A stretch of DNA of 61,137 bases, taken from the NCBI GenBank assembly GCA_016209985.1, contig JACQVB010000209.1, positions 1 to 61,137 on the forward strand. The letters run 5' to 3'. The stretch is from Gemmatimonadota bacterium. GTDB taxonomy: Bacteria; Gemmatimonadota; Gemmatimonadetes; Gemmatimonadales; GWC2-71-9. The notes below the pieces were generated by a model. That model was not told the origin of the DNA. It worked only from the letters and a program-made list of their open reading frames with translations, and did not search any database. The position numbers and the translations under genes were made by a program. Shown piece after piece: positions 24,726 to 57,793 of this stretch (positions within the stretch are counted from its first letter, which is position 1; every line of letters starts with the position of its first letter).

Positions 24726-24747
24726 GAGACGACTCCTACCTTAATGT

Positions 24748-24803: not shown

Positions 24804-24863
24804 CGCCGAGGGCGCGACAGAAATGATAATTGGTGTATCTCGCAATCGAGGGCTGCACCCCTC

Positions 24864-34057: not shown

Positions 34058-34130
34058 GGGGCTGTAGCTCAGCTGGGAGAGCGCCTGGATCGCACCCAGG
34101 AGGTCAGGGGTTCGAGCCCCCTCAGCTCCA
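34058..34130 (+). tRNA. tRNA-Ala (anticodon CGC)
   Basis: 73 bases. Acceptor GGGGCTG/CAGCTCC (one G-T pair), D-arm with AGCTCAGCTGGGAGAGC, anticodon stem CCTGG/CCAGG enclosing loop ATCGCAC (anticodon CGC), T-arm with GTTCGAGCC. Discriminator A; CCA is not encoded. Confidence 0.95.
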
Positions 34131-34208: not shown

Positions 34209-34281
34209 TGCCCCTTGGTGTAACTGGCAACACGCCTGACTCTGGATCAGGAGAGTCCTGGTTCGAGCCCAGGAGGGGCAA
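34209..34281 (+). tRNA. tRNA-Gln (anticodon CTG), island integration site
   Basis: 73 bases. Acceptor TGCCCCT/AGGGGCA, anticodon stem CCTGA/TCAGG with loop CTCTGGA (anticodon CTG), T-arm CCTGG TTCGAGC CCAGG. Discriminator A, no encoded CCA. The integrase gene ends 78 bases downstream, so its 3' end is the probable attachment site. Confidence 0.95.
34255..34281. other. Putative attL (3' end of tRNA-Gln)
   Basis: Tyrosine integrases of this type commonly recombine at the T-arm and acceptor end of a tRNA gene. The integrase gene lies next to it and points towards the tRNA. The exact core cannot be set because the second copy (attR) is not in the window. Confidence 0.5.
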
Positions 34282-34283
34282 CT

Positions 34284-34359: not shown

Positions 34360-35616
34360 TCAGGCGCTCTTGCTCGTCTTCCGGCTCATCAGCTTCACCG
34401 GCGAGGCCATGACGCGGAGCATCGTTTCCTCGTCCGCCTGCTGGTAACAGGTCAGCAGAGTCTGCGTGTCCCGCCAGCCTCCTGCGGCCTTCACGTCCAC
34501 CAGCGGCATGTCTTTCCGCTCCGTCGCCCACTTTCTGCGGTAGGCGTGCCACCGCCCACCTGCGAGCTTTCCGACCTTCGCCTGTGCCTCGGCTCGATCG
34601 AGCAACTCCCCGAAGATGTCGCGCGGCCAGGGCTCGTCCCGGGACCTGCTCGGAAACAACCATCCGTCTCCGATGACCCCCAGCCTGACCTTGAAGGTTC
34701 TAACCTCTTCGGCCAGGTGCTCGGGGATTGGCACGACGCTCTCGCGGCCACGCTTGTCGAACCCGGCCCGCCACCTAATAGCCGGCGGATCGAATTCGAT
34801 GTCCGACCACCTCAGGCCTCGGATCGCGCCGATTCTGCGACCAGTGCCCTCGGCCAGGACCAGCGCGAGCTCGAACCGCACCCACCGCTCGCGCCCGCGT
34901 TTCTGCGGCGCGCTGCCCGCGAGTTCCCGTGCTGCTTCCCGCACCCTCACGAACCGGTCATACGTCGCGACCGGCCTTCGCGGGTTTTCCTCCTTAGGAA
35001 GCCTCATCCCGCGGAGGGGATTCTCCGTGAGAAGCCACGACCCATTGGGCTTGCGTTCCCTGGTTGCCCAGAGGATCATCGCGCGAAGCACGCACAGGTC
35101 GTCACGGACGGCCGTAGCGCGAACCGGCTTGGTTCTTCGACCGTCAGGCCATCCTGCCCCGTTTCGCCGGATCTGGACATACCGGTCAACGTCGTTCAGG
35201 GTCAGGTGCTCCACGCGCTTGGTGGTGCCGAGGCCCGCGATCAGCCGTTCAGCGGCGCTCTTCTTCTGGCGTTGCGTGCGCTTGGTATTCTGTCGGTATC
35301 CTGAAGCCTCCCGCTGGTAGAGTTCCCAGAGTTCCCCGAGCGTCAGGGGTCGGTCGGACGCTTCATTCTCGCCGTTTACGACGGCGCGGTAGAACGCTTC
35401 CGCCCGCTTGAGCGCCTCCGTGCGGCTCTTCGTCTTGAGCGAGGCCCAATTCGCGCCGCGCCCCGGGATCCACGTTATCCGAACGAATTCGCCGCCTGGA
35501 CTGCGCTGAGTGACCCGGACCCGGCATCCACGCTCTCCAAGCGAGGCTGACCAGCATCCACCCCCGCTCTTATGCCACGGCGTCCGAATCGAAACCTTAG
35601 GCAACCGTCTCTCCAT
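34360..35616 (-). CDS. Tyrosine recombinase/site-specific integrase
   Basis: 418 residues. N-terminal arm-binding part, SAM-like core-binding domain (about 95-200, LTLGELWELYQREASGY), then the catalytic domain: Arg in EGTGRRIGAIRGLRWSDI (about 255), HAYRRKWATE with His-x-x-Arg (about 357), GWRDTQTLLTCYQQ with nucleophile Tyr near 391. The His/Trp box is Trp (GGWRD). Responsible for inserting and excising this island at tRNA-Gln. ATG 35616; its first codons overlap the end of the HTH gene by 20 bases, so excisionase and integrase are co-expressed. Confidence 0.93.
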   Translation of the reverse strand: MERRLPKVSIRTPWHKSGGGCWSASLGERGCRVRVTQRSPGGEFVRITWIPGRGANWASLKTKSRTEALKRAEAFYRAVVNGENEASDRPLTLGELWELYQREASGYRQNTKRTQRQKKSAAERLIAGLGTTKRVEHLTLNDVDRYVQIRRNGAGWPDGRRTKPVRATAVRDDLCVLRAMILWATRERKPNGSWLLTENPLRGMRLPKEENPRRPVATYDRFVRVREAARELAGSAPQKRGRERWVRFELALVLAEGTGRRIGAIRGLRWSDIEFDPPAIRWRAGFDKRGRESVVPIPEHLAEEVRTFKVRLGVIGDGWLFPSRSRDEPWPRDIFGELLDRAEAQAKVGKLAGGRWHAYRRKWATERKDMPLVDVKAAGGWRDTQTLLTCYQQADEETMLRVMASPVKLMSRKTSKSA

Positions 35617-35992
35617 CTGTTGCGCCCTTTCTACGGCGCCAGACGGTCACCAAGTGCCGAGCATCGGCGTCGACATCGTACGAGCTGTCGCCCGTCGAGT
35701 CAACTCGATGCGGCTTTCTGGGAAGGTCTGCGGCGCGGAAGAACAGCCTACGGCCGCGGCGGAAGGCGGTGAGTCGGCCGAGCCGGGCCATGCGGCGGAG
35801 GTGGTCGGGCGAGTAACCCGTGGCCTGGGACGCCTCGTCCAGCGAGAGTTCGGCCTGGTCCTCGGCATTCCAGAGCAGTTCGAGCTCGGCCAGGATCTGA
35901 TCGCAGAGCCTCGCCCCGTCCACGAGCGCGCCGAGCCGGTTGAGCTCATCGCGCCGCTTCCGAAGCTCTTGAACAAACTGCTGCCGGGTCAT
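35597..35992 (-). CDS. Excisionase-like helix-turn-helix protein
   Basis: 131 residues. A helical N-terminal half (MTRQQFVQELRKRRDELNRL) leads to a MerR/Xis-type winged helix: LSLDEASQATGYSPDHLRRM then ARLGRLTAFRRGRRLFFRAADLPRKP. This is the excisionase/AlpA DNA-binding pattern. It overlaps the integrase start by 20 bases, a common Xis-Int arrangement. The tail is basic. It probably controls the direction of recombination or integrase expression. Confidence 0.7.
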   Translation of the reverse strand: MTRQQFVQELRKRRDELNRLGALVDGARLCDQILAELELLWNAEDQAELSLDEASQATGYSPDHLRRMARLGRLTAFRRGRRLFFRAADLPRKPHRVDSTGDSSYDVDADARHLVTVWRRRKGATDGETVA

Positions 35993-36290: not shown

Positions 36291-36316
36291 AAAAAAAGGG
36301 GCCCCTCACTGGGGGG
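36291..36316 (-). terminator. Likely intrinsic terminator at the end of the 128-aa gene
   Basis: On the minus strand: CCCCCC, AGTGA loop, GGGG, CCCC, then TTTTTTT (36291-36297). The stem overlaps the stop codon at 36306. The T7 run is unusual in this GC-rich sequence. Confidence 0.45.
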
Positions 36317-36692
36317 TGGCGCGGAGCCACTGCTCAAAACGAGCAGCCACCTTCAGGACAGATTCGACATCCGATTCTGTCCAGCACAGCGCCGCTGCCG
36401 CCTTTAGCGCCACGGCGCGCGCGATCCGCGCGTCCACGGACGCTTCTTGCGCGTGGCGCTCGACACTGGCGTCCTCGACGCCCATTTCTTCGGCGGGCTC
36501 CGACACTCGGATCTCCTCGATGCTCCGGAACCTGCCGGACTCCGAGTACGCGATCTCGACCTCAGCGCCGCGCTCGACCGGGCACTGACCCGCGCCGTCG
36601 AACCACGAGCGGCCGATACGGACACCGTAGCGGTCCTCGGAGTTCTGGGCGGTCGCGACGACCACGCCCCTGGCCTGCTTCAGTTCGCTCAT
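36306..36692 (-). CDS. Unknown 128-aa protein, possible OB-fold
   Basis: The first 65 residues have a strand-rich pattern with a Trp-Phe patch, RIGRSWFDGAGQCPVERGAEV then IAYSESGRFRSIEEI, which resembles small OB-fold nucleic-acid-binding proteins of phages and islands. The second half is helical and Ala-rich (ARIARAVALKAAAALC, VLKVAARFEQWL). ATG 36692 has an almost perfect Shine-Dalgarno, GGAGGTGATTGT, so it is strongly translated. It lies downstream of the HerA operon, on the same strand. Function not recognised. Confidence 0.65.
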   Translation of the reverse strand: MSELKQARGVVVATAQNSEDRYGVRIGRSWFDGAGQCPVERGAEVEIAYSESGRFRSIEEIRVSEPAEEMGVEDASVERHAQEASVDARIARAVALKAAAALCWTESDVESVLKVAARFEQWLRATPQ

Positions 36693-36789: not shown

Positions 36790-38838
36790 TCATGCCGATG
36801 CCTCGGGGCGATCCTGCGGACCGCCCTCGTCGAACTCAGGCTGGAACTCGCGCAGCAGCTTGAAGCGGACCTTCTCGAGCACGACCGCTGCCTCGGGCCC
36901 GAGCGTCGCGGTGATTGTGCGCTTCAGCTTCGCGGCCTCGTCTTCGGACTTCACGCAGTACCACACTTGGTTGAAGCCGACCTCGAGGTCTCGCAAGTTC
37001 GCGATCTCCTTTTGCACGCCCTCGATGAGTACCTCTGCGGCTATCGCGACGCCGTCCTTCTGGAGGCTCACGTCCACGCTCTTGCCATCCACGAAGTGCT
37101 CAACCGTGGCGTGGTAGCCGTTCCTTCGGGCCCAAGCAGCAATGACGTGCTGATGGTAGATGTGCTCCAGGCTGCCCCTGCCAGCGGGCCGTTGGCAGGC
37201 CACGCCGATCGATTTAAGGAACTGCACGCCTTTATTGGTCACGACCGTGAGCTTGAACCCGCGCGACTTGTTGTGCGTCCTGACTTCCTGAAGCTCAATC
37301 AGGTCCGAAGACGCGAGTTCGCTGCGGAGCGCGGTTCCCTGCGAAAGCGGGACCTGTAACCTGCGGTCGCGCCAGGTGACGGGCACCAGCTGGTCCTTGC
37401 TGATCTCGACCAGGTAGTCCAGTGCGCCCTTCGAGACGAGCGGCAGTTTCTCCTCCTTCGGCGGCTCCGCTGCAGCCGGGCGGCCTCCCTCAAGCGGGAT
37501 GAAGCTCAAGCTGTTGATCGTGTCGTGGATCCTCTTCTCGATCTCCGCGGGCTCCGGAGCCCTCACCGGGCAGTCGTGGACCCTCACCAGGAAAGGCTCG
37601 GGCCACGACGGGTTGTTGTACTGCACCACGCACACCTGCCGAGGGAGCCGTGAAAGCGCGGCGCGCTGCTCGTGGTTCAAGCTCAGGCTGCGTTGGATCG
37701 CATCCTGGTCCCTGCCTTCAATCGTCGAGAAGACGAACCGCGAGGTGCAGTTCGCGACGATCTGTGTCGGCAGCTCGCTCGGCACCTGGTCAGTGCAGAG
37801 CAGCGCCACGCGGCACTTCGCAAGCGTTCGCGCGGCGTCCAAGACCACCGGTTCAGCGATGTCCGCGCGGCGCAGCCGCTCGCGGTTGGTGAGGCGGTGC
37901 AGCTCCTCCACCACCAGCATGAGCTTCGGCACCGGGTGGGGATCGGGCTGGAAGTGGCAGCTGATGCGCAGAAGCAGGTCGTTGACAGCCAGGCAGTAGT
38001 CGTCCGCGTTCATGCCGCGGAAGCGGAGCAGCGTGCTTGTCGAGGTGAGATCGGCAATGTCGTGGCCGGACGCGCAGCTGAACACCGGGCTCGTGAGCAA
38101 TCCCTCAAACCGGTTTTTCAGGCTCTCGTAGAAACCGTACTCGCGGCCTGCGCGCTGGAGCTTGAAACGCAGCTGCATCAGCGCCTCGTACAGGTCCGCG
38201 ATGCTCACAGGACGCGATGGGTTCAGCCCCTTGCAGTGCTTGAGGAGGAAGCGGAGCATGGACTTTGAGCCGTCGCGGAGGTACAGCGACTCGCCCATGT
38301 TTCGAATCGCGTAGCCCCACCAGACCTCATCAGGAACACCGGCAGGGGGGCCGAACAACCCAATCCGCAGGTTCTGCCAGTCGATGACCTGCCAGCCCCC
38401 GCTGAGCGCGAGGTCGGCGTAGGCCGGGTCGTCCTCGGGGTCGATGATGAAGCACAGCTGCCCATCTACCAGCCGCCGGGCCGCCATGGACTTGCCGCCG
38501 CGCGTGGCGCCAACGAACAGCCGGTGGACGGTAACGTGCGGAACGCTCATCTCTCCGCACGCCTCGAGCCCCTGGACCGTCGGCTTGACTGCGGTCCCGA
38601 AACCCAGATAGGGAACGTGCTCCGCGCCTGGAACGATGAAGTCCCTGCTGGTAGGCGTCTTGAACGGCTGAGGGCTGTACGCCTCATCGCCTGCCTCCGC
38701 CGTGAGCTTGCGCAGGAGCGACTCTTCGAGCCTGGGGTCCGGATACATGGCGAGCCGCCGCATCAGGGCCCTGAAACCCGGCTCCCGGTGGCGGCCCGTG
38801 ATTTCCGCCAGCTCGAGGATCCGCGGGAGTGCGCTCAC
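36790..38838 (-). CDS. HerA/FtsK-like ATPase with nuclease-like C-terminal domain
   Basis: 682 residues. P-loop LFVGATRGGKSMAARRLV (about 112-128), a following LCFIIDPEDDPAYADL, Walker B-type LMLVVEELHRLTN (about 308) and sensor region VALLCTDQVPSELP match the HerA/VirD4 class of hexameric DNA pumps. From about residue 455 a winged-helix segment follows, then TVEHFVDGKSVDVSLQKDG and AIAAEVLIEGVQKEIANL, whose Asp, Glu and Lys spacing recalls PD-(D/E)XK-like domains. No transmembrane helices, unlike conjugation coupling proteins. GTG 38838 overlaps the upstream stop by 4 bases. Last gene of the coupled operon. Confidence 0.82.
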   Translation of the reverse strand: MSALPRILELAEITGRHREPGFRALMRRLAMYPDPRLEESLLRKLTAEAGDEAYSPQPFKTPTSRDFIVPGAEHVPYLGFGTAVKPTVQGLEACGEMSVPHVTVHRLFVGATRGGKSMAARRLVDGQLCFIIDPEDDPAYADLALSGGWQVIDWQNLRIGLFGPPAGVPDEVWWGYAIRNMGESLYLRDGSKSMLRFLLKHCKGLNPSRPVSIADLYEALMQLRFKLQRAGREYGFYESLKNRFEGLLTSPVFSCASGHDIADLTSTSTLLRFRGMNADDYCLAVNDLLLRISCHFQPDPHPVPKLMLVVEELHRLTNRERLRRADIAEPVVLDAARTLAKCRVALLCTDQVPSELPTQIVANCTSRFVFSTIEGRDQDAIQRSLSLNHEQRAALSRLPRQVCVVQYNNPSWPEPFLVRVHDCPVRAPEPAEIEKRIHDTINSLSFIPLEGGRPAAAEPPKEEKLPLVSKGALDYLVEISKDQLVPVTWRDRRLQVPLSQGTALRSELASSDLIELQEVRTHNKSRGFKLTVVTNKGVQFLKSIGVACQRPAGRGSLEHIYHQHVIAAWARRNGYHATVEHFVDGKSVDVSLQKDGVAIAAEVLIEGVQKEIANLRDLEVGFNQVWYCVKSEDEAAKLKRTITATLGPEAAVVLEKVRFKLLREFQPEFDEGGPQDRPEASA

Positions 38839-39686
38839 GGCAGCTGCTTTCTCCCGCCGGGGAGCTGCTTCTCGCGCCGCGCGGCATCCAGGCCAGCCTT
38901 GGCGATCTCGCGCTGCAGCGCCTCGGTTTCCAGCCGGGAGTCCAAGGCCCGGCGCTCAAGCTCGTTTCGGGCGGCTGCTTGCGACGCCTCGACGAGCAGG
39001 CGCTTGTGCTGCAGCTCTAGATTCGCGTCCTGCAGCCTGATGTTCGCGTAGGCCGTCTCCTCCTGGGCCGTGATGAGCCGCCGTTGCGCTTGTTCGCGTG
39101 CGTCCTCCAGTTCCAGTCTCCTTTCTTCAAACCCCACGCGGCGCTCCTCGAACTCCAGCCTGCGCTCCTGATGCCGCATGTCCAACCGGAGCTTCTCAAT
39201 GCCCGTTTTCGCGGCCTGGACCTGGGCCTCGGCGAGGGACACCTGCTGCCGAGCTGCGGCCAGCCTGGCCACGGCCAAGCCCTCCTCAGCCGCCCGCTTG
39301 AACACCGCGTGCCTTCGGTGCGGCTCAGCGCAGCTCCGGTGGTACCAGGCCTGCTCAGGAGTCCCCTGTCCGACGAGCTCGCCGGTGCCGGGCAGGATCT
39401 GCGACCCGCAGGATGGGCAGCGATGGATGCACCGGACGCACCAGATCTTTCCGTCCAGCTCGACCGTCTCTTTCGGGTCATCGACCACGTGCCCGCACGC
39501 CAGCGGCGCGACCCGCACGTCCAGGCGCTTGTTGCCTGAGTCGTCGAAGACTTCGTGAGCTTCCTTCAGGAAGACGGGATTGCCGTCCACCATGAGGTAG
39601 AAGTTCGTGCGGGTGTGCATGCCCGGCGCTTCGAGGGGCCCGCGCCCGGTTTCGGCTGCCACGAGGAACGCCTTCTTGTCCATCAC
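38835..39686 (-). CDS. LIM-like zinc-binding protein with long coiled coil
   Basis: 283 residues. Residues 60-120 hold a Cys/His cluster: ACGHVVDD, IWCVRCIHRCPSCGSQILP, and AWYHRSCAE. The C-x2-C, C-x2-C and W-Y-H-x2-C pattern resembles LIM or treble-clef zinc domains. Residues 125-270 are a charged coiled coil (RLEFEERRVGFEERRLELED). No membrane span. It overlaps both neighbours by 4 bases, so it is made in step with the ATPase and the membrane protein. A paralogue is encoded at 45058-45714. Function unknown; adaptor role is inferred. Confidence 0.75.
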   Translation of the reverse strand: MMDKKAFLVAAETGRGPLEAPGMHTRTNFYLMVDGNPVFLKEAHEVFDDSGNKRLDVRVAPLACGHVVDDPKETVELDGKIWCVRCIHRCPSCGSQILPGTGELVGQGTPEQAWYHRSCAEPHRRHAVFKRAAEEGLAVARLAAARQQVSLAEAQVQAAKTGIEKLRLDMRHQERRLEFEERRVGFEERRLELEDAREQAQRRLITAQEETAYANIRLQDANLELQHKRLLVEASQAAARNELERRALDSRLETEALQREIAKAGLDAARREKQLPGGRKQLP

Positions 39687-41260
39687 CGCCTCCCGGATGC
39701 GACAAGCCGCAGGTTGGGGTTGCTGCCCGCCAGGGCGAAGCGCCCGCCGCCCCAGCCAACCATCAGGACGCCGCGACCAACGCCGTGGTACGCCCTGCCC
39801 GCGCGTCCGCCCCTGGCCATGAGTGAGTACACGTACCGGCCCGGCGGCAGGGCAACGGTAGCAAGCCCGGAGCGGGGATCGGTCCTCACGCGAGTGCCGC
39901 CGATGGCCACTTCCAGGTCGACGTCGCCGGCCATGGGATTGACCAACGTCACGTCCACGGTGCCCGACTGGCGTTGAAGGTCCTGAAGCCGAGTCGCAGC
40001 TTCAGCCAGCTCGCGCACCTGGTTCTCCCGGTTCTCCAGCTGCGCTGACAGCTGGCTGAGTTCCGCGGACTCCTGCTGCAAACTTGCCTCCGTTGCGGCC
40101 ACGGCCGCGTCACGCCGTTCCAGCTCGGACCTGCGGGTGGCGAGCTGCTGCCGCCCGGCGCTGAGGTCTCGTTCCCACTGGATGAGAGTTGCTTCCCAAC
40201 TGCCGAACTGCTGCTCGGCCCGCTGAAGCTTCTGCTCCCGAGCGCCGAGAGCTCGCTCCGCCTCGCGAATCTCGGCCCGCTTGGCGTCCAGCCCGCTCGC
40301 TACCTGCTCCACCTGCCCGACGCGCGCCTGCACCACGTTCTCCCGCCTGTTGAGCTCTGCTTCCTTGCTAGCCAGCTTGTCCCGCCAACTGGTTAGCTCT
40401 CCCCTCTCACGCCAGAACTCCGCTCTGGCATCTACGTACGGAGCGACCAGCCTGTCCCTGACCGGCAGGAACGCTGCGCCCACCAGCACGATGAACGCCG
40501 CAACCTGCAGGCTGAGCCACCGCCGACCGGACTTGCGAACCGCCTGCTCTCGGCCCTGCAGCTCGGCGGCTTCCTTTCCGTGCCTCGCCTTCATCTCCTG
40601 CTCGCGCTTTCCCTGGGCCACCGTCGTCACCGTGAGCTCAGAGTTGCGGGTTGCCCACTCCCTTTCCAGCGCCTCGCGCCTGACGCGCATTTCCTCCTCC
40701 TGCCGTTGCTGCGCCGCCACCAGCTTGCCGTCGAAGGCCTCCCTGTCCGAAGCGAGCCTGGCCCGGCCAGCCTCTAGGTCCTCGAACGGCTTGAGCGCGG
40801 CGTCACGCCGGTCCAGCTCTGCAGCCCGGTGCTGGAGTTGCTGTTCTTTCTTGCGTGCCTTCCGTTCCCAAGCAGCGTGTTCTTCCGCAAGTCGTGCTTC
40901 GGCTCTTTGGTAGCCGTGAGCGGCTGTGGAAAGCCTTTCTCGTTCGTTCGTTACCGCCAGCTCCTGTTCGACGACGGATTTCGCGAGCTTCCGGTTGCCC
41001 TCGGCCAGCGCTTCCTTCTCAGCAGCCAGGCGCTGGAGTTCAGCCCGGCCGGCAGAGAGGCCCTCGTCAACTGGTGCGGACACGATCTCCGTCAGGAACT
41101 CCGGCGCCGCGACCCCGCGGCAGAGCGCGTACCAAGGCGAGAGGCCGATCGCGGTCCCGATCTCGTCTCCACGGCCGCAGAGCGTCGCGTAGTAGGCGAT
41201 CGTCCTCGCAGAGTCGCGTAGCTTGGCGATCATCTCGTCGTTCTTGAGCTCTTGCATCAT
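39683..41260 (-). CDS. Membrane coiled-coil protein with C-terminal beta domain
   Basis: About 525 residues from ATG 41260. A short N-terminal region with Cys (YYATLCGRGDEIG), then about 170 residues of coiled coil (LAAEKEALAEGNRKLAKSVV), one transmembrane helix (WLSLQVAAFIVLVGAAFLPV, near residue 270), a second coiled coil of about 150 residues, and a C-terminal beta-sandwich-like domain, TVDVTLVNPMAGDVDLEVAI with LPPGRYVYSLMARGG, similar to PEGA-like surface domains. It may bridge cytoplasm and periplasm. Starts at ATGA overlapping the previous stop; ends overlapping the next start. AGGAGGG lies directly before the two ATGs. Confidence 0.72.
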   Translation of the reverse strand: MMQELKNDEMIAKLRDSARTIAYYATLCGRGDEIGTAIGLSPWYALCRGVAAPEFLTEIVSAPVDEGLSAGRAELQRLAAEKEALAEGNRKLAKSVVEQELAVTNERERLSTAAHGYQRAEARLAEEHAAWERKARKKEQQLQHRAAELDRRDAALKPFEDLEAGRARLASDREAFDGKLVAAQQRQEEEMRVRREALEREWATRNSELTVTTVAQGKREQEMKARHGKEAAELQGREQAVRKSGRRWLSLQVAAFIVLVGAAFLPVRDRLVAPYVDARAEFWRERGELTSWRDKLASKEAELNRRENVVQARVGQVEQVASGLDAKRAEIREAERALGAREQKLQRAEQQFGSWEATLIQWERDLSAGRQQLATRRSELERRDAAVAATEASLQQESAELSQLSAQLENRENQVRELAEAATRLQDLQRQSGTVDVTLVNPMAGDVDLEVAIGGTRVRTDPRSGLATVALPPGRYVYSLMARGGRAGRAYHGVGRGVLMVGWGGGRFALAGSNPNLRLVASGRR

Positions 41261-41865
41261 CCCTCCTGCTCCCATTCCGACAACTGGAGCCAGGGATGGA
41301 GGCCACGGCCGAAGCAGCGTGGGCACTCCATCTCGCCTTCATCGTTGTGTTCTTTGATTTCTCCGCACTGGTCGCAGAACTCGATGTGGCACGCAGGGCA
41401 CTTGCCGCCGCCTTCCAGTTCCTTGCCGCACCGGTTGCATGTCCGGACGAAGCCGCGAGGGGCTCTCGGCATCCCGCCCCGGGCCGGTGTGACGGGGTGT
41501 GAGCTGGGAGCCCGGTACGGATGCCCTGTGGTTGGGTCGATCTCGAAAACCGGTGGCAGGCCAGGGTGCGACGCGTTAAGTGCCCTCATCCCGCTGAACC
41601 AGGCCTCGTCCGCGACGGGCACGCTCAATCCGCGCGGATGGACGGGGCCCGCCTCGTCCAGCGGGCCCGGCACCTGGGCGCCGTTCCCAGGGAGCAAGGG
41701 CCAGGACTCGGTGATCGGAGTGAAGAGCGCAGCGTCCCACGCTGGCAGCCCGGCCGAAGCGTCCACCGGCGGCGCCACGGGCGGCATGAGCGGCTCGGGG
41801 GTGGGCACGGCTGGGGACGGAAGGAACCAGGGGTCCCACGGGTGTTCGCCGAACGGATCGGTCAT
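41257..41865 (-). CDS. Pro-rich protein with eight-Cys RING- or double-zinc-ribbon-like end
   Basis: 202 residues. The first 140 are Pro-rich and disordered (PTPEPLMPPVAPPVDASAG). The C-terminal 60 residues hold four Cys pairs: CNRC, x9, CPACHIEFCDQC, x13, CPRC. The spacing C-x2-C-x9-C-x3-H-x3-C-x2-C-x13-C-x2-C fits the RING C3HC4 rule, but the same cysteines could equally make two zinc ribbons. ATG 41865. 4-base overlap with the membrane coiled-coil gene. Its role is probably protein-protein contact in the complex encoded by this operon. Confidence 0.7.
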   Translation of the reverse strand: MTDPFGEHPWDPWFLPSPAVPTPEPLMPPVAPPVDASAGLPAWDAALFTPITESWPLLPGNGAQVPGPLDEAGPVHPRGLSVPVADEAWFSGMRALNASHPGLPPVFEIDPTTGHPYRAPSSHPVTPARGGMPRAPRGFVRTCNRCGKELEGGGKCPACHIEFCDQCGEIKEHNDEGEMECPRCFGRGLHPWLQLSEWEQEG

Positions 41866-41890
41866 CGCGCCTCCTTGGGCTCTCCGCCTC

Positions 41891-42217
41891 CTATTGCTGC
41901 CAGCATTCCGGGCACCTCACGCCCGCTGGGTTCGTCTGTGCAGTGTTCGCCGACTCAGAGAAGGCGAACAGCGTTTCGCCGTCGCCCACCATGGACCACA
42001 CGTCGTCGCTCATCGCCAGGACCATTCCCTCAGCCGTGTGCAGGCGCAGACTGTCCATGTCCACGCCGTGGGCAACTCTAAGAACGGTCAGCAACTCGGA
42101 AGGGGTCTCGCCGCGGTGAATCACCGCAGGAACCATCCTGCCGCCAATGGTTACGGTGATCCAACGGATCCGGCTCGCTGGCCCGCCGGGAGCAACTGGC
42201 GATGTGCCTTGGCTCAT
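41891..42217 (-). CDS. Small beta-grasp (ubiquitin-like)-fold candidate
   Basis: 108 residues from ATG 42217 (a TTG at 42238 is possible). Residues 17-85 have the strand-turn-strand-helix-strand rhythm of a beta-grasp domain: WITVTIGGRMVPAVIHRG, helix SELLTVLRVAHG, then SLRLHTAEGMVLAMSDDVW and MVGDGETLFAFSE. This resembles bacterial Ubl/multiubiquitin domains. The C-terminus is RCPECWQQ and has no Gly-Gly, so conjugation through a diglycine is not expected. First gene of the operon, 26 bases before the zinc protein gene. Fold is by eye only. Confidence 0.6.
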   Translation of the reverse strand: MSQGTSPVAPGGPASRIRWITVTIGGRMVPAVIHRGETPSELLTVLRVAHGVDMDSLRLHTAEGMVLAMSDDVWSMVGDGETLFAFSESANTAQTNPAGVRCPECWQQ

Positions 42218-42345: not shown

Positions 42346-43665
42346 GTGCCGGCTGGGCGAAGAAGGCGCACGCGTCTGGTAAGCCTCGACGCTGAGCTGG
42401 AGCTTGAATCCGGCCAGCGCGTGAGTTGGCAATCTCGCCACGCCATCCCGATCGGCGAGTTCGTCGAGTCCGCCGGCGGACCACGAGGGTTCTTTGCCGA
42501 CTCAGAGGCGGGGCAACGCGTTGTCTCCTGCGCCGCGGGCCTCGCCGACCCATTCGTCGAGAGAATCTGGAACGCCGCGCCGGCGCTTCGCCCTTCAAGG
42601 GAGCAACGGAGGATTGCCGGATCGGTTCACGGGCGGCTCGCTTCTCTTGCGATGCCGTACCTGCTCGGCGAAGCACCCGCACGTTGGCTAGGCAGGCGCA
42701 AGTACGGGCCGGTGCTGAAGCCGCTCGCCGATGCGTCAGGCAGCAAGGCTTTCTATCAGAGCGCCAACACGCAGATCGAGCGCCTGGTTCCTCGTCTACG
42801 CGCGACGGTGACTCTAGTTCACGCGGCGCAAGGATCAGAGGATGAATTGGCTGCCTGCCTGTTGAAGTCAGCCACGGATGGGTGGAGGACGGGCCCGGTC
42901 GCAATGCTCTCGATGGTGCGGGAGCGGATATCGAGGGACCTTCCGGAGGTCGGCTCCAACCTGAGCGCTCTTGCGGGCGGCCTCGTGCGTCAAGCGTTTG
43001 TCGTGCTGGATAACTCGGTTCGTTGCAACGAAGTGGATTCCAGCATCGAAGCGTTCTTGAAGGTCTACCAGCTTTTGAGGCTCGCCGCGCTTTTCCACCC
43101 CGACCCGACTTCGCTTCGCGATCAGATTCGTGACAGGCTCAACCAGCTTTCCGACCGTGGTTCGACGAAGGTCACGTGGCTTGAACGGGCGATGAAGCGC
43201 CCGCTGCACCTTCTCCTCTCGGGGGAAGAGTGGAACACCTTCATCAACGAGCTCCTGGATTGGGCAACCGAGCCGGTTGGCTACGCAGCGTCATTCGCGG
43301 CGTACGAGGCCGGTTACTACCAGGATGATCTCAACGAGGACCTATGGGACAGAATCAGGAACCCGTACGCCCTGACTTCCCCGTGGACGCACGAGGCGCT
43401 TCACAAGGTCCTCGAGGAGTCGGACAAGAACACCCGAGAACCATGGTATGACAAGCCTCATCACGCGGCTATAAACGCCTTGCGAGTTGCAGTGTATCTC
43501 AGGGCGTGTCCGCCGCTTCCACTAGGTCACAGGCAGCGGATTGCGGTCACGCACATCGCGAGGCACGCAGCCTGCCGCGTTTCCCGCCTCGATCATCCAA
43601 GGCGACCTGAGGTCAGGGCCTGGGGGGTTCGCCTGGAGAACTACGCTCGATCCGGGGAGTGGTGA
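42346..43665 (+). CDS. Unknown 439-aa island protein
   Basis: Soluble, mostly helical after residue 110, with no recognisable motif. The N-terminus is basic (MPAGRRRRTRLVSL), then a strand-rich region (AELELESGQRVSWQSRHAIP). No P-loop, nuclease triad or membrane span is visible. GTG 42346 is the likely start; no strong Shine-Dalgarno. Transcribed away from the HerA operon across a gap containing a direct repeat. Its 3' end overlaps the convergent gene by 53 bases. Could be a sensor or effector of the neighbouring system. Confidence 0.65.
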   Translation: MPAGRRRRTRLVSLDAELELESGQRVSWQSRHAIPIGEFVESAGGPRGFFADSEAGQRVVSCAAGLADPFVERIWNAAPALRPSREQRRIAGSVHGRLASLAMPYLLGEAPARWLGRRKYGPVLKPLADASGSKAFYQSANTQIERLVPRLRATVTLVHAAQGSEDELAACLLKSATDGWRTGPVAMLSMVRERISRDLPEVGSNLSALAGGLVRQAFVVLDNSVRCNEVDSSIEAFLKVYQLLRLAALFHPDPTSLRDQIRDRLNQLSDRGSTKVTWLERAMKRPLHLLLSGEEWNTFINELLDWATEPVGYAASFAAYEAGYYQDDLNEDLWDRIRNPYALTSPWTHEALHKVLEESDKNTREPWYDKPHHAAINALRVAVYLRACPPLPLGHRQRIAVTHIARHAACRVSRLDHPRRPEVRAWGVRLENYARSGEW

Positions 43666-44398
43666 TCACCGCAGGGTACAAGAGCTCCAAAAAGGACTGA
43701 ACCGCGCCCCTCACGTCCGAGACGCTGGGATTGCCCAAACGAGCGTTCATGGCTGCCAGCGACCGCGAGGAGTAGTAGGCCGAGAGCGTGTCGCGCTCGT
43801 CCGATGAAATGATTCGAGCCTGCTCGAGAAGGTCCGCACGGTACGCGTGGTAGCGCCAGGGCGCCATCCCGCCCCGTTCACCTTTGAAGAATAGTGAGAG
43901 TCGGTAGAGGGCTTTGTCTGCGATTCTCCGTTCGGCTCTCGTCATGCGTGGTGATTCGCTCGTCCGGTAGCCATGTGGTTCCAAAGGTGGTTCTGGCTCC
44001 GTTGGCGGCGGCCCCCTGATGCTCGCTCCAACCCACCTGAGATAACGGCCGCGCCTCTCGGGGTTGAGAACACCATACATCCTGTCGAGCAGGTCTCGTT
44101 CGACTCGGTCCACAAGCCCGAAGGCAAACGATCTTCGGAGGTCTTGCTTCTCCCACAGGTGATAGCGAACCAAGAGGTAGTCCGGGCCGTACTGGAATGG
44201 CGGTGCGCTGTCCCGCACGAAATCCCGCTCGTACTCCCGAACGTTCGCTTTGTACAGGCCGCGTGCAGCGTCTCGCCATCGCACATCGTTCGCCTCCCGG
44301 CTCGAATGGAACAAGAATAGGGAATAGAGCACCTTCTGAGCCGCAATAGACACCTTGGCTGGGAAAGAATAAGAAGCCAACGACGGCCTGCCAGTCAC
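43613..44398 (-). CDS. Unknown 261-aa island protein
   Basis: The frame is open to 44812, but its first 138 codons lie antisense to another gene and look like shadow. From GTG 44398 the composition is normal: VTGRPSLASYSFPAKVSIAA, then helical and aromatic-rich (YLLVRYHLWEKQDLRRSFAF, WRYHAYRADLLEQARIISSD, LSAYYSSRSLAAMNARLG). No known domain. It ends overlapping the convergent 439-aa gene. The start is uncertain. Confidence 0.55.
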   Translation of the reverse strand: MTGRPSLASYSFPAKVSIAAQKVLYSLFLFHSSREANDVRWRDAARGLYKANVREYERDFVRDSAPPFQYGPDYLLVRYHLWEKQDLRRSFAFGLVDRVERDLLDRMYGVLNPERRGRYLRWVGASIRGPPPTEPEPPLEPHGYRTSESPRMTRAERRIADKALYRLSLFFKGERGGMAPWRYHAYRADLLEQARIISSDERDTLSAYYSSRSLAAMNARLGNPSVSDVRGAVQSFLELLYPAVITTPRIERSSPGEPPRP

Positions 44399-44478
44399 GC
44401 GGCTTGGACGTGTGCCAGCTGTTATCCAAATAAGCGTGTCGAAAGCTTTAAGCGGTTGCAGATGCAAAGAAGGACTTA

Positions 44479-44772
44479 GTGATCGATGTGCCAGATAGCG
44501 CACGTGTGATGGCGATTGTTCGGGAGATCTCAACCGAGATGCGGAAGTACTCCGAACATGGTGTAACGCGGAGTAACGTTGTAAGGATCTTGGCCCACAT
44601 AGATCTACTTCGGGTCGCGCACACTGAGCTGCTGGCTTCGTTTGCGCTAGGTCAGCGGAAATCGATGGACAAGGCCGGTGAAAGGCTCTACCGGGAGTCT
44701 CTGCTAGGAAGGTATTTTCCGAGAGAGGTCCGTCAGAATCGCGCGTCTCAAAGAAGACCGAAGCAACGCTAG
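44479..44772 (+). CDS. Small helical protein (97 aa)
   Basis: GTG start. Helical: VMAIVREISTEMRKYSEHGV and RSNVVRILAHIDLLRVAHTE, ending in a basic tail (RQNRASQRRPKQR). No family recognised. AAGGA lies 9-10 bases before the start. Divergent from the 261-aa gene. Confidence 0.5.
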   Translation: MIDVPDSARVMAIVREISTEMRKYSEHGVTRSNVVRILAHIDLLRVAHTELLASFALGQRKSMDKAGERLYRESLLGRYFPREVRQNRASQRRPKQR

Positions 44773-44822
44773 AAGAGACAACAACCGGGGCCGGAACTCG
44801 CCCGAGCCCCAAGAGAGGTCGA

Positions 44823-44975
44823 CTACCTCTCGTACCGCGCTGGGCAGTGCACGTTGTTGCACTCTCCGTAGCTCAGGCGATGGCCGCAGGATTCGCAGAA
44901 CCTCTTCTCGCCATATCGTCCGCAACGGCAGTCTTCCAACCGTTTTCCACAGTAGCCGCAGTACGCGTAATGCAC
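44823..44975 (-). CDS. Tiny zinc-ribbon protein (50 aa)
   Basis: GTG 44975 has AAAGGAG 7 bases upstream. The product reads MHYAYCGYCGKRLEDCRCG, then RFCESCGHRLSYGECNNVHC: eight to ten Cys in C-x2-C pairs, two zinc-binding knuckles. The longer frame upstream to 45050 is less likely. It lies downstream of the zinc/coiled-coil paralogue gene on the same strand (83-base gap). Probably a small adaptor. Confidence 0.68.
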   Translation of the reverse strand: MHYAYCGYCGKRLEDCRCGRYGEKRFCESCGHRLSYGECNNVHCPARYER

Positions 44976-45057
44976 GGCGCGCTCCTTTCGGTCGGAACCT
45001 CGGGTGAGAGTTGGTAAGGTCGTAACAACCTGCCGCGCGGCGCGCACCAACGACCAC

Positions 45058-45714
45058 CTAGTCGCGGATCACCGGGTGGTCCTCGTCAGGCAATATGTTT
45101 GCCACGTCCTGGACCGTGCGCTTGAATTTCTCGAACAAATCCGGCTCTCGTGCTCTTCTCGTGAAGTCGCTGCCTATCCTATCGAACTCCTGATGGCGGG
45201 AGGCCCGCATCTCCTGTATGGCCTGAGACTGGACGCGCAATGCGCTTTCCCGTTCCTCGATCTGACGCTCCGAGAGTTCGCGCTGGACAGCCATGTCGTG
45301 ACGCAGCGAGGCGATCTCGCTCTGCATCTGCCGGATGGCCCGGCGACTCTCACGCTCCTCTGCCCTTCTTCTCGCCTCGGCCTCCGCGGAGGCAAGGAGT
45401 GAGCAGTTGACGGGTTCTCGCCGTTTGGTGCGGTGGTACCAGGAACCATCCACGGAGACAGCCTCTCCCGGTTCTATGGTCTCGCCGCACTCAGCGCACA
45501 CAAGGAGGCACTTGGAGCAGACCAAACTGGCCTGGTCTGTCCGCTTGATGTGTGCCAGGTCGGCAACCTTGTGGCCGCAATTGAGCAGGACGGATAGTTT
45601 AGCGATCGTGTCGCCAGCCTTGTCCACCTCGATCTCGAAGCGGATAGGGGGAGTCTGGCTCTCGGCGCATTTAGCCTGCTCCCGTCTGATGGCTTCGAGG
45701 AGCGCGTCCCGCAT
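45058..45714 (-). CDS. Second zinc/coiled-coil protein (paralogue of 38835-39686)
   Basis: 218 residues from ATG 45714. Cys/His cluster: NCGHKVADL, LVCSKCLLVCAECGETIEP and GSWYHRTKRREPVNC, in the same order and spacing as the LIM-like domain of the operon protein. Then a coiled coil (EARRRAEERESRRAIRQMQ, LSERQIEERESALRVQSQ) and a short end region. The open frame continues to 45954 but that part is antisense to the TPR gene. Only about 30 bases separate its start from the divergent TPR gene, so the promoters overlap. Confidence 0.7.
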   Translation of the reverse strand: MRDALLEAIRREQAKCAESQTPPIRFEIEVDKAGDTIAKLSVLLNCGHKVADLAHIKRTDQASLVCSKCLLVCAECGETIEPGEAVSVDGSWYHRTKRREPVNCSLLASAEAEARRRAEERESRRAIRQMQSEIASLRHDMAVQRELSERQIEERESALRVQSQAIQEMRASRHQEFDRIGSDFTRRAREPDLFEKFKRTVQDVANILPDEDHPVIRD

Positions 45715-45744
45715 CGCCGCGTTGTGCTCGCGGTTCTGCGCGCT

Positions 45745-47892
45745 ATGCCCGTTGACCGCCTGAGAGCGATCGGCTACGCGCTCGGACGACAAGGTGTCCC
45801 GCCGGAGGTAGGCATCAGTGTGCTGCTCAAAAGTGACGCCTATCATGGCTTGCTGCAAGCTGGACGGTCGGCAGAGGAGGCTGCCCAGCTCGTTGCGGGG
45901 ATCCTCAACGACTCCTATCTGCGCGGCCTCGCAATATTCGAAAAGGAGCGTCACGATACGCTGTTTGCAGAAGCACAGGAATCAAAGGCGCAGCGACAAT
46001 ACTCGGACGCACTCGACCTTTACGGACAGGTACTTGAGATCAATCCGGTCAACGTCGAAGCACACATCGGAACCGGCGATTGCTTGCAGGGTCTGCGAAG
46101 GCACGCGGAGGCAGCGACGGCCTACGAAAGAGCGCTTGATCTCCGTCCGGGCGACGGGGACGTGCTGCTCGCAAAGGCAAGGAGCGAGCGGGATGCGGAC
46201 CACCTTGCCGAGGCAGTTCGCACGTACCGTACTGCCATCTCGGAAGCCCGACCGCCCGCTGGCTCACGTGCTGACAGGTGGGGGTACAACGTACGGCGCG
46301 AGCTGGTTGACGCTCTCTTCCGTCAGGCGAACTGGCAGGCCGCGCTGAATGAGATCGGCGTGCTTCGGTCTTCCTTGCGATCGCGCGCTCCATCAGGTCA
46401 GCACGAGGAAGGCGCCGCATTGCTCGGTCTGGAAGCGTTCGCGTTCACTAAACTCGGACAGTACAAGACGGCACTGGAACGTCACGAGGAGGCTCGCAGA
46501 CTGGACGGCGACTACGTGGCGAAGCTTCCAGGTGAGGTCAGCGGCTTTCTTGACGGGATCGGACCTTTCCGCAGCATATCGTACGGCGTATCTCGTCTTT
46601 GGTCTGGCGCGCGTAACTGGGCTCCGGTCAGCGTCGTTGCGGGGGGTGCTGCAGCCGTCCTCGCCGCGATCCTTCTGACGGACGCGGTACTTCTCTCCAC
46701 TCAGCCGGCACGGTTGTGGGTGGTGGCAGCGGCGTCCTTCAGCCTCGTGGGGATCGTGGGCTGGCTACTTTCGCTGGACCTGCGAACGGCTCCCGGCGCG
46801 CGGGCAGGATGGGCCTTCCTGACCGTGGCAGCTTTGGTCGGTTCAGCGTACGCAACTGCTCAGGGCCTGCCCCGTGGCTTCGAGGGCCGCGGTTCGAGCC
46901 CGTTTGCCGCAACTAGACAGCCTCCGTCGCGGGTGTCAGCGGTCCCTGGAGGCGGCCGGAGCATCGCGCCCCTTGGAAGAGACAATCGGACCAGAGTGCC
47001 AGCCAGCTCATCTCAAAGAGGCGCTGAACGCCCCTCCAGGGCGACCATCGCCGCAGTCGCGCCCGTGAGGGCCTGGGTTACGACGCCTGGGTTCGGGAGG
47101 CTGATGCGCGAGGTGTGGTGCGACATGCCGATCTATTGTTTCGCGGTAGGGGATGGGGGCGAAGTCCTGCTCTTTGACGGGCCGGGATGGACCCGAATGA
47201 GTACTCCAACAAGTGCGGACCTGAAGGCGATTTGGGGCTTCTCCCATACAGACGTTTTCGCGGTGGGTAACTCCGGCGTGATCTTGCGATACGATGGGAA
47301 CACCTGGACTCAGATGCGCAGTGGCACTACAAACCACCTGCTCGAAGTCTGGGGCCCGGCGCCTAACGTCGTGTTTGCGGGCGGTGTCTTTGGCACCCTC
47401 CTCCGGTACGACGGGGTCAGTTGGTCGGAAATGGCGACGCCGACAACTCAGGACCTGTGGGGTCTTTGGGGGAGCAGCTGGAGCAACGTTTACGCGGTCG
47501 GCGGGAGTGGCAGGGTGTTGCATTACGACGGCTCGGAGTGGCGGGTACAGCCGGTTGGTCGTTGGGAAACGCTCTTCGCTGTCTGGGGGAGCTCAGCATC
47601 CAATGTGTTTGCGGTCGGTGGTGGCGGCACGGTCCTGCATTTCGACGGTGCGACTTGGAGCCGCATGAGCAGCGGCACAACGGCCATCCTGAACGATATC
47701 TGGGGTTCTGGGCCGCAAGATGTTTACGCAGTCGGTTCCCGCGGTGTGATCATACGGTTTGACGGCATCCGCTGGACGGCCATGTCGAGCGGCACTGGCC
47801 TGGATCTCTCCGGCGTTCACGGAAGTGGTGGTCCTCCGGCGGACGTGTTCGCAGTTGGCTCTAACCGGGTCATTCTCAGGGGAAGGCGGTAG
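45745..47892 (+). CDS. TPR - membrane - beta-propeller protein
   Basis: 715 residues from ATG 45745 (GTG 45724 possible). Residues 60-240 are TPR-like helices (AEAATAYERALDLRPGDGDV). Three hydrophobic segments follow around 300-385. A low-complexity linker leads to six complete and one partial repeat of about 39-40 residues with consensus FAVG-x2-G-x-(V/I)-L-x-(Y/F)-D-G-x2-W then (V/I)WG-x4-(D/N)V. These would make a seven-bladed propeller, probably outside the membrane. Likely a scaffold or sensor with cytoplasmic TPR and external propeller. Divergent from the zinc/coiled-coil paralogue. Confidence 0.82.
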   Translation: MPVDRLRAIGYALGRQGVPPEVGISVLLKSDAYHGLLQAGRSAEEAAQLVAGILNDSYLRGLAIFEKERHDTLFAEAQESKAQRQYSDALDLYGQVLEINPVNVEAHIGTGDCLQGLRRHAEAATAYERALDLRPGDGDVLLAKARSERDADHLAEAVRTYRTAISEARPPAGSRADRWGYNVRRELVDALFRQANWQAALNEIGVLRSSLRSRAPSGQHEEGAALLGLEAFAFTKLGQYKTALERHEEARRLDGDYVAKLPGEVSGFLDGIGPFRSISYGVSRLWSGARNWAPVSVVAGGAAAVLAAILLTDAVLLSTQPARLWVVAAASFSLVGIVGWLLSLDLRTAPGARAGWAFLTVAALVGSAYATAQGLPRGFEGRGSSPFAATRQPPSRVSAVPGGGRSIAPLGRDNRTRVPASSSQRGAERPSRATIAAVAPVRAWVTTPGFGRLMREVWCDMPIYCFAVGDGGEVLLFDGPGWTRMSTPTSADLKAIWGFSHTDVFAVGNSGVILRYDGNTWTQMRSGTTNHLLEVWGPAPNVVFAGGVFGTLLRYDGVSWSEMATPTTQDLWGLWGSSWSNVYAVGGSGRVLHYDGSEWRVQPVGRWETLFAVWGSSASNVFAVGGGGTVLHFDGATWSRMSSGTTAILNDIWGSGPQDVYAVGSRGVIIRFDGIRWTAMSSGTGLDLSGVHGSGGPPADVFAVGSNRVILRGRR

Positions 47893-49769: not shown

Positions 49770-50807
49770 ATGTCCACCAGGCGACGCCGTGAATACCTTC
49801 AGCTCTTGGATGCCGCCAAGGCCGCAGCCGAGTCCGCCATCGACGCCTTCAACCGAGTATGGCACCCATACCGATATGAAGCCACGCTCATTCTCCTCAC
49901 GAACGCGTGGGAGCTGTTGGCGAAGGCGGTTCTCGTCCAGCAGCGAGAGTCGATAGTAAAAGGCCAACGGGGAGACACAATCACGGCCGAGACAGCGGTC
50001 CACCGGCTCCAGCTAAGGAAGTTACTCGACGAAACCCAAGTAGCGACGATCCAGCAGGTTGTCTCCCTGCGTCACGCCGCAACCCACCACCTATTACCCG
50101 AAGTCCCACCGGAAGTCATGCAACATCTGTTGTACTTCGCGTCCAAGTTCTTTCGATACGTGGTAGGTAAGGTATTCCCCGCTCATCTGAGAACAATGAA
50201 CGAGGATTATCTGTCGCTGTCGTTCTCAGACCTCACTACATATGCCGACAAGGTGCAGAAATCCGTGTCTCGCGTGAAGAAAAGTGCTGGTCACAAGCGA
50301 TTGGTGTGGCTCTTGGAGCGCGGTATCCAATTCGACGGCAGCCAATACATCACTGAGGCCCAATTCGAGCAGAAATACAAGGGAAAGAAGCGAGTGCTGC
50401 CGCACCTCGCACTAAGTCGGTTCATTCGAGGCGCTGAAATGGTCAGGATCGTACCCATCCAGGCGCCGCGAAACTTCACCGCTGACATCTCCCTCAGAAA
50501 AGGCAGTGCGGCCGATGCATCGCTGCCCGTTCTGGTCAAGCGAACAGAGATTGAGAGTGACTACCCGTATCTTACCCGTGAACTCGGACAGAAACTGGGC
50601 AAGAATCAAAACTGGGTGGCGCGAGCGGCAACGGTCCTCGGGTTGAAGGGTGTTCCAACGTTCCATCAGGCTGTGAGGGCCTCTACCACCAGTACAATCC
50701 AGCGATACTCGGAGGCGGCGCTGCAAAAGCTGCAGCAGAAGCTCGCGACAAGCCCTGACTTCGATCCGTACCACGCCCCGCCCGTTCCGCAGGCCCGACC
50801 GGCGTGA
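49770..50807 (+). CDS. DUF3644 (HEPN-like) protein
   Basis: 345 residues. The N-terminal helical domain matches DUF3644: HPYRYEATLILLTNAWELLA, a charged helix, and VVSLRHAATHHLL. The last carries an R-x4-H motif (Arg about residue 101), the hallmark of HEPN ribonuclease domains, a superfamily that includes DUF3644. The C-terminal part has a predicted HTH-like segment (LTRELGQKLGKNQNWVARAA). May be an RNase effector or toxin under the upstream XRE regulator. ATG 49770. Confidence 0.78.
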   Translation: MSTRRRREYLQLLDAAKAAAESAIDAFNRVWHPYRYEATLILLTNAWELLAKAVLVQQRESIVKGQRGDTITAETAVHRLQLRKLLDETQVATIQQVVSLRHAATHHLLPEVPPEVMQHLLYFASKFFRYVVGKVFPAHLRTMNEDYLSLSFSDLTTYADKVQKSVSRVKKSAGHKRLVWLLERGIQFDGSQYITEAQFEQKYKGKKRVLPHLALSRFIRGAEMVRIVPIQAPRNFTADISLRKGSAADASLPVLVKRTEIESDYPYLTRELGQKLGKNQNWVARAATVLGLKGVPTFHQAVRASTTSTIQRYSEAALQKLQQKLATSPDFDPYHAPPVPQARPA

Positions 50808-50945
50808 TCCGCTGTTAGCGACATTGAGCGGGCAAAGCGGCACCCGACCTGGGATCTCGTCGAACGCGTGCTGACGACCATGGACGTGGGATGGGAAGAA
50901 TTCGGGCAGGTCTTGGACCGCGAGACGCACCGGCAGGGGCGGTGA
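50808..50945 (+). pseudogene. Remnant of an XRE regulator, in frame after the DUF3644 stop
   Basis: Directly after the DUF3644 TGA and in the same frame comes SAVSDIERAKRHPTWDLVER, then VLTTMDVGWEEFGQVLDRET and a TGA at 50945. This is the recognition helix and C-terminal half of an XRE domain, lacking the first 30-35 residues and a start codon. Either a deletion fused its remains to the DUF3644 gene end, or rare stop readthrough adds it to DUF3644. Confidence 0.68.
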
Positions 50946-50967
50946 TTGACTACCGCTCCCCATTGAC

Positions 50968-52092
50968 GTGCGAGGCCTCCGTCGGTTAGGTGACCGCTAC
51001 TTGGTCCCGCCGCTGCAGTCCGACGATCTTATTGGTATGCCGCCTACTTCAAGCGCTCCGGGTCCTGCTCACCTCAAGCTCCTCCAGCTGGTCTACGATC
51101 GCTTTCTCCAAACTGGGGAATGGCCCAAGACTCGCTCCGTGCGCCTGGCAATTCGGCACGAAGGGGACCTGTTCGAACTGGGTCAGGAGATCGGCCCGGA
51201 GCTCATGGTCACCGGCAGCACGGACAGTCCGAACGCGACCTGCCAACTTCGCATCCGGGCGCTTCGGGTTCTGGAACACGCAGAGCGCGACATCGAAAAA
51301 GTGGGTGCGGCCATTCCGTATCTGGTTAGCCGGTACCTCGAAGGCGCGGGGGAAGGGGAGCCTCGAATCTCGCCGGCGGAAGTCCAGCAGGCATTGGAGT
51401 TGTCCGAGCTTGAGACACGGCGTGTGCTAAGCTGGCTCGCCTACGCCCCCAGGCTGCTCCGAGGTTTCGGCTCAGGGCCCGACGGGCAGATTACGGACTT
51501 CACGCTTTCGGACGACATCTTGCGCCTTGAAGGAGTGACCACTCTCCAGGAATACCTTGAGCGCACTGACAGGCTGGACGAGGATTGGAGGCGCAAGGTG
51601 GCCGAAGTGTCCCCGCCACCGCGCGCACTCTCGTCGCGTCCGCCTAGGCTGGGCCTGAGGCAGAGCTCCTCAACGTTGGGCCTGGATCTCCTCGAGTTGC
51701 ACGAGGACATCCGACAACACGTTGAGAAGCTATTTGCGGACGAGCACTATGCAGACGCCGTGCGGAGAGCCCTTACGGTTTTCGAGGTCCGCGTTCGAGA
51801 AATGGTCGCTTCTCGGCTTCGTTCAGGCGAGGGAGCGCCGTATGGTGTGGACCTGATGGGCAAAGCCTTCTCGGCAAAGGAGCCGCTTATCAGGCTCAAC
51901 GATGGCGCGACGCCGACACAACGAGACGAGCAACGGGGCTTCCAGTTCCTCGCTCAAGGGGCCATGGCCTGGCTCCGCAACTGCCTGACACATGAACTAA
52001 CGAATCTCCAGCCTTCCGAAGCGTTAGAGCGCCTTGGCTTTGTGAGCATGCTTATGAAGCGACTGGAGGCAGCGGCGAACAAAGAGCAGTAG
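50968..52092 (+). CDS. TIGR02391 (Ymh) HEPN-like protein
   Basis: 374 residues from GTG 50968 or about 351 from ATG 51037. The C-terminal 140 residues match the TIGR02391/Hypoth_Ymh family: LDLLELHEDIRQHVEKLFAD, HYADAVRRALTVFEVRVREM, and GAMAWLRNCLTHELTN with an R-x4-H HEPN motif (about residue 336). The N-terminal half is helical and contains a winged-helix-like stretch (EVQQALELSELETRRVLSWL). Probably an RNA-cleaving or nucleotide-acting defence effector. It follows the DUF3644 gene and XRE remnant in the same direction. Confidence 0.78.
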   Translation: MRGLRRLGDRYLVPPLQSDDLIGMPPTSSAPGPAHLKLLQLVYDRFLQTGEWPKTRSVRLAIRHEGDLFELGQEIGPELMVTGSTDSPNATCQLRIRALRVLEHAERDIEKVGAAIPYLVSRYLEGAGEGEPRISPAEVQQALELSELETRRVLSWLAYAPRLLRGFGSGPDGQITDFTLSDDILRLEGVTTLQEYLERTDRLDEDWRRKVAEVSPPPRALSSRPPRLGLRQSSSTLGLDLLELHEDIRQHVEKLFADEHYADAVRRALTVFEVRVREMVASRLRSGEGAPYGVDLMGKAFSAKEPLIRLNDGATPTQRDEQRGFQFLAQGAMAWLRNCLTHELTNLQPSEALERLGFVSMLMKRLEAAANKEQ

Positions 52093-57787: not shown

Positions 57788-57793
57788 TCAGAA

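Follow-up and report, generated by a model that had tools for sequence, protein, structure and literature searches.

An operon of five minus-strand genes, at positions 36790 to 42217 of the 61,137-nucleotide window analyzed here (contig JACQVB010000209.1 of assembly GCA_016209985.1, a Gemmatimonadota bacterium), may be the cargo of a genomic island integrated at a tRNA-Gln gene. Its products may form a membrane-tethered complex around a HerA-type DNA motor, most likely acting against invading DNA. A probability of about 45% is assigned to this reading as a whole, in which complex formation, membrane tethering, DNA pumping, and the role in defense are all inferred from domains. Gene 5 supplies the putative motor and gene 1 a predicted ubiquitin-fold protein.

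The gene 5 product carries a Walker A motif (GATRGGKS) and a Walker B motif (LMLVVEE). These motifs and others in the C-terminal part are collinear with those of DUF87/HerA proteins, including a HerA protein encoded beside SIR2. Matches were obtained with the PADLOC models for mad8 (4.4e-7) and HerA (3.2e-5) and with the NCBIfam model HerA_antiphage (7e-4), while the protein had no Pfam match, being below the detection of DUF87 and without a match to the type IV coupling protein (T4CP) models. The HAS-barrel of canonical HerA was not found in the sequence, with only about 100 residues, lacking a Pfam match, in front of Walker A; hydropathy revealed no transmembrane segment. In matches on plasmids of Nocardia, Streptomyces, and Bradyrhizobium, the HerA core alone was confirmed and the neighboring genes differed. 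Together, the sequence features support assignment of the gene 5 product to the HerA clade of the FtsK-HerA superfamily as a divergent HerA-type ATPase.

Residues from about 546 to 650 of this protein align with the C-terminal domain found in TrwB/TraD-like ATPases from the same class, with a best E-value of about 1e-6 per genome. In the alignment, Asp40 and Glu53 (numbering of the aligned domain) are invariant, and the lysine of the PD-(D/E)XK motif is replaced by leucine or serine. Because the catalytic lysine is missing, the nuclease-like end may only bind DNA. A HerA-type pump with such an end had been proposed in a preliminary description of the operon, and several hidden Markov models plus the shared C-terminal domain support it, albeit without the lysine. 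The TrwB/TraD-like ATPases concerned (loci L007 to L010, L125, and L127 to L130) resemble gene 5 in this PD-(D/E)XK-like domain, with 25 to 35% identity and the lysine absent on both sides, but they match T4CP models of Pfam and mostly possess a long N-terminal domain. Most of them have as neighbors a membrane protein of roughly 220 amino acids (aa) and a second ATPase instead of ubiquitin-like (Ubl) and zinc proteins. A trio composed of an ATPase of about 413 aa, a membrane protein of about 220 aa, and a TrwB-like ATPase of about 1,030 aa recurs in the class of the host (L007 to L009, L125, and L127 to L130). These large ATPases have the restriction endonuclease-like (REase-like) domain without the lysine, and several trios contain a fused HTH_17 domain.

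Gene 1 was modeled with AlphaFold2 from the single sequence, with a predicted local distance difference test (pLDDT) score of 61.5 overall and about 70 to 75 in the core. The order of strands and helix, beta-beta-alpha-beta-(beta)-beta, is that of ubiquitin. Foldseek returned 162 matches in the PDB at E-values of 1e-3 or lower, the best listed being ubiquitin, SUMO, and Ub-like domains, with E-values for ubiquitin and SUMO of 5e-5 and up. The root mean square deviation from ubiquitin was about 1.4 Å, with target-normalized TM-scores between 0.82 and 0.86, and a search of a viral library returned many viral ubiquitins. The model thus supports a predicted beta-grasp (ubiquitin) fold, bearing out the small ubiquitin-fold-like protein suggested before.

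The gene 2 product contains eight cysteines (positions 143, 146, 156, 159, 164, 167, 181, and 184) in four CxxC pairs. A C3HC4 spacing can be read as C143-C146-C156-H160-C164-C167-C181-C184, provided that the additional Cys159 is ignored, and the residues fit a sequential double zinc ribbon equally well. No RING family match and no significant Pfam or PDB match was found. The best Foldseek match of the modeled zinc domain (pLDDT 67) was to IBR/RBR domains and was weak (E-value of 0.33, probability of 0.54); a Pfam match to Anti-TRAP (0.0017, below the cut-off) reflects the CxxC motifs and was discarded. The eight cysteines and their RING-compatible spacing stand, whereas these matches do not support the RING assignment made earlier. 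A ubiquitin-like conjugation or E3 system, with gene 1 encoding the modifier and gene 2 a RING-type ligase, could appeal to the ubiquitin fold, the possible C3HC4 placement, and the faint IBR/RBR likeness. It is nevertheless very improbable, since the gene 1 product ends with VRCPECWQQ and has no terminal Gly-Gly, gene 2 has no significant RING match, and no E1, E2, or JAB domain was present in Pfam scans of the main open reading frames (ORFs) of the island up to the contig end at 61137. Ubiquitin-type conjugation is therefore not supported, and a link to Ubl conjugation finds no support given the missing Gly-Gly; the caution that classical conjugation is not implied, and the statement that E1 and E2 are absent, agree with these results for the genes scanned. 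The genome does contain a Prok-JAB gene at another locus; such genes are common to many bacteria. Bil-type bacterial ubiquitin-like systems likewise have a ubiquitin-fold protein in a possible defense operon but differ from the operon, which has no E1, E2, or JAB gene beside gene 1 and no Gly-Gly tail on its product.

Gene 3 encodes a protein with a single hydrophobic segment from about residue 247 to 273, assigned by hydropathy as one transmembrane segment. Heptad periodicity is significant on both flanks of this segment, at residues 85 to 168 and 274 to 378. Weak matches to SMC/JetC coiled coils were found, and the C-terminal domain is beta-rich as judged by eye. The gene 4 product displays a LIM-like zinc pattern, C-x-H...C-x2-C-x3-C-x2-C...H-x2-C, followed by a charged helical tail without a significant heptad period in the periodicity test. 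Hydropathy and zinc pattern support the earlier description of a membrane protein and a LIM-like zinc protein; of the coiled coils ascribed to both, that of gene 3 has statistical support and that of gene 4 does not. The zinc domain of gene 4 is homologous to that of a second LIM-like protein of the island (E-value of 6e-8 for that pair), which had been overlooked. This second gene lies in a minus-strand cluster at 43613 to 45954, together with genes for a 75-aa protein with eight cysteines (44823 to 45050) and a protein without a family match (43613 to 44812).

The coordinates of all five ORFs and the 4-base overlaps between genes 2 and 3 (41257 to 41260), 3 and 4 (39683 to 39686), and 4 and 5 (38835 to 38838) were verified and agree exactly with those given before; the gap between genes 1 and 2 has 25 bases. 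Shine-Dalgarno-like motifs precede gene 2 (AAGGAGG), gene 3 (CAGGAGGG), and gene 4 (GGGAGG). The GC content at third codon positions, 0.75 to 0.85, compared with 0.43 to 0.57 at second positions, is the coding-frame pattern for the GC-rich DNA here. This tight coupling argues for one complex. The count of five genes probably falls one short because a further ORF starts 97 bases past gene 5 with its own strong Shine-Dalgarno motif (GGAGGTG). It matched PHROG_993, a family of unknown function, with an E-value of 0.002, and it ends at a GC-rich hairpin followed by TTTTTTT (z-score of −2.1 over an 81-base stretch). The six-gene unit is only probable because the scan for consensus terminators did not list this hairpin. 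A 439-aa ORF without a family match (42346 to 43665, plus strand) diverges from the operon, its start being 128 bases from gene 1. The features are compiled in Table 1.

Table 1. Location of the genes of the operon and of other features of the island
Feature	Position	Strand	Remarks
Gene 1	41891..42217	−	ATG at 42217; 108 aa; predicted ubiquitin-fold (beta-grasp) protein
Gene 2	41257..41865	−	202 aa; Pro-rich N-terminal part, C-terminal eight-Cys zinc domain
Gene 3	39683..41260	−	525 aa; two helical rods separated by one transmembrane segment; beta-rich C-terminal domain (by eye)
Gene 4	38835..39686	−	283 aa; LIM-like zinc domain (64-119), long charged helical tail
Gene 5	36790..38838	−	682 aa; HerA-type ATPase, winged-helix-like segment, PD-(D/E)XK-like C-terminal domain
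Probable gene 6	36306..36692	−	128 aa; based on ORF, spacing, and Shine-Dalgarno motif
Terminator-like hairpin, T7 tail	36291..36328	−	3' of gene 6
Excisionase-like HTH_17 protein	35597..35992	−	Pfam HTH_17, 1.6e-6; PHROG excisionase, 0.002; kept beside related integrases
Tyrosine integrase	34360..35616	−	Pfam Phage_integrase, 4e-10; PHROG integrase, 5e-32; relatives flank tRNA genes
tRNA-Gln (CTG)	34209..34282	+	Presumed attachment site
tRNA-Ala (CGC)	34058-34130		Adjoins tRNA-Gln
Second LIM-like zinc and helix protein	45058..45954	−	Start uncertain; ATG near 45712 likelier
DUF3644 (PDC-S19) and adjacent TIGR02391/Hypoth_ymh (PD-Lambda-3_B-like) genes	49770-52092	+
GIY-YIG protein, zinc-ribbon protein, and Eco57I-like N6 methylase with HSDR_N domain	57007-60439	−	Methylase possibly a type IIG restriction enzyme

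The two tRNA genes, the integrase gene, and the excisionase-like gene lie at the downstream end of the island, a context that the preliminary description had missed. A tRNA gene was located 2 kb or less from the integrase end in all eight related cases checked, from eight genomes. A 65% identical integrase occurs in another genus (genome G380, locus L088) at the same pair of tRNA-Gln and tRNA-Ala, where it heads type I restriction-modification, PDC-S11, and RmrA-like defense genes, and none of the genes of the operon was found in the 18 kb of this sister island that were read. The integration site therefore takes up defense cargo, and HerA stands outside the integration core. In the window, the island contains DUF3644/PDC-S19 (4e-26) and a TIGR02391 protein matching PD-Lambda-3_B (3e-10) as defense-type cargo, along with the Eco57I-like N6 methylase and its HSDR_N domain, a setting that fits the proposed defense role. 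A second att copy of the tRNA-Gln repeat was not found in the draft genome. A fluoride riboswitch (24744 to 24810, minus strand; Rfam, 48 bits) is located in the flank, outside the island.

These surroundings can also be read differently. The operon may move the island itself. Gene 5 would then encode a DNA pump, either coupling-type or FtsK/TraB-like, that works with the membrane protein of gene 3 and the adaptors to transfer the excised island into other cells. In favor of this, gene 5 adjoins the presumed gene 6, the excisionase, and the integrase. TrwB/TraD-like ATPases in related genomes carry the C-terminal domain of gene 5 as well, and a helix-turn-helix protein and an integrase likewise follow one of them (L010). 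Genes for HerA-like ATPases rank among the most frequent in archaeal “dark matter” islands (PMC4158269). Against transfer speak the missing T4CP match and transmembrane segment of gene 5, the sister island without the operon in the 18 kb read, and the result that scans of the island proteins up to the contig end detected no relaxase, VirB4, VirD4, or type IV secretion genes. Transfer is thus a possible but less probable explanation. Defense is favored over it because defense cargo occupies the integration site in both genera and no HerA was found in the part of the sister island that was read.

The gene set was present in no other genome searched, including samples of the phylum, class, and order, peptide patterns of limited sensitivity in a collection of 84,980 species, viral contigs, plasmids, and phages. 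No full-length relative of gene 5 emerged from 198 genomes of the class or 288 of the order, and none of gene 4 or gene 1 from 395 genomes of the phylum; the peptide patterns represented gene 5 and the LIM domain. E-values from profiles that include the found sequence were not counted as independent. The conserved gene order on which the preliminary description had staked its proposal thus appeared nowhere searched, an outcome that it had named as refuting; a rare or fast-evolving module may still exist. The only relative that gene 5 has in these searches is the tail of a decayed gene (L124, genome G322), which matches the last 200 residues, the winged-helix-like part included (phmmer, 1.7e-11 in a single comparison), and looks like a relic of a gene 5-type protein because broken reading frames follow. 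Weak matches elsewhere (L014, L020, L021, L041/L044, and L043/L046) were dismissed as chance, lying in threonine dehydratase-like, kinase, and housekeeping contexts. A loose set of fast-evolving island genes without a common function, in which the overlaps reflect compact packing only, would explain why no conserved order was found, but four consecutive short junctions with Shine-Dalgarno sites, a consistent coding signal, and the presence of a further LIM-like zinc gene on the island make it rather unlikely.

In the favored reading, a defense complex around a tethered motor, the gene 5 product would assemble into a ring of the HerA type and pump double-stranded DNA, and its winged-helix/REase-like tail would grip the DNA or, should an unusual active site persist, cut it. 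Gene 3 would provide the anchor in the inner membrane, with one rod per side, and the zinc proteins of gene 4, with its helical tail, and gene 2 would act as bridging adaptors. The ubiquitin-fold subunit, not conjugated, may dock on or gate the motor by analogy with the supposed role of EsaB/YukD in type VII secretion. Several observations weigh against this interpretation. The PADLOC matches to HerA and mad8 cover only parts of the gene 5 ATPase, and its REase-like domain has no catalytic lysine. Apart from gene 5, the C-terminal domain occurs on coupling-protein-like ATPases; this, like the proximity of gene 5 to integrase and excisionase, fits DNA transfer as well. The neighboring defense genes mark a defense-type island and not the operon as one of its systems, and without a homologous operon the set as a working unit elsewhere is unsupported.

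HerA is known to form defense complexes with Sir2 or DUF4297 (PMC12948488). Sir2-HerA (Nezha) and DUF4297-HerA share with the operon a HerA-type ATPase in a defense-type island and a nuclease-like domain beside the motor, but neither Sir2 nor DUF4297 domains were found among the island proteins scanned. In gene 5, the REase-like domain is instead fused to the ATPase and lacks the lysine, and the genes beside it encode a ubiquitin-fold protein, two zinc proteins, and a membrane rod. A further parallel is type VII secretion, in which an ATPase of the FtsK/HerA superfamily (EssC) and a membrane protein also occur with a stand-alone, apparently nonconjugated ubiquitin fold (EsaB/YukD). Secretion depends on EsaB, and YukD, a homologue of EsaB, is not conjugated (PMC5845737, PMC1779556). 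A secretion-like machine that exports protein, with genes 1, 5, and 3 as counterparts of EsaB/YukD, EssC, and a membrane rod, is improbable, however. The gene 5 product has a single ATPase domain compared with the multidomain EssC, no transmembrane segment, and a DNA-type winged-helix/REase-like tail, and no plausible ORF for a WXG100-like protein was found in the island.

HerA motors and ubiquitin-fold proteins are each present in bacterial conflict systems. A search of databases and open papers did not reveal a system that joins a HerA motor, a ubiquitin-fold protein, zinc adaptors, and a membrane rod. The operon might encode an anti-invader machine of a new kind, in which the transmembrane rod tethers a HerA DNA pump to the membrane and a nonconjugated Ubl subunit and zinc adaptors gate it, as the DNA-directed counterpart of the Ubl-ATPase pairing of type VII secretion; this more specific proposal is doubtful. 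Should defense prove to be its function, the operon would extend the known repertoire by a Ubl-gated DNA motor; should it serve to move the island, it would represent a transfer module without a recognizable relaxase.

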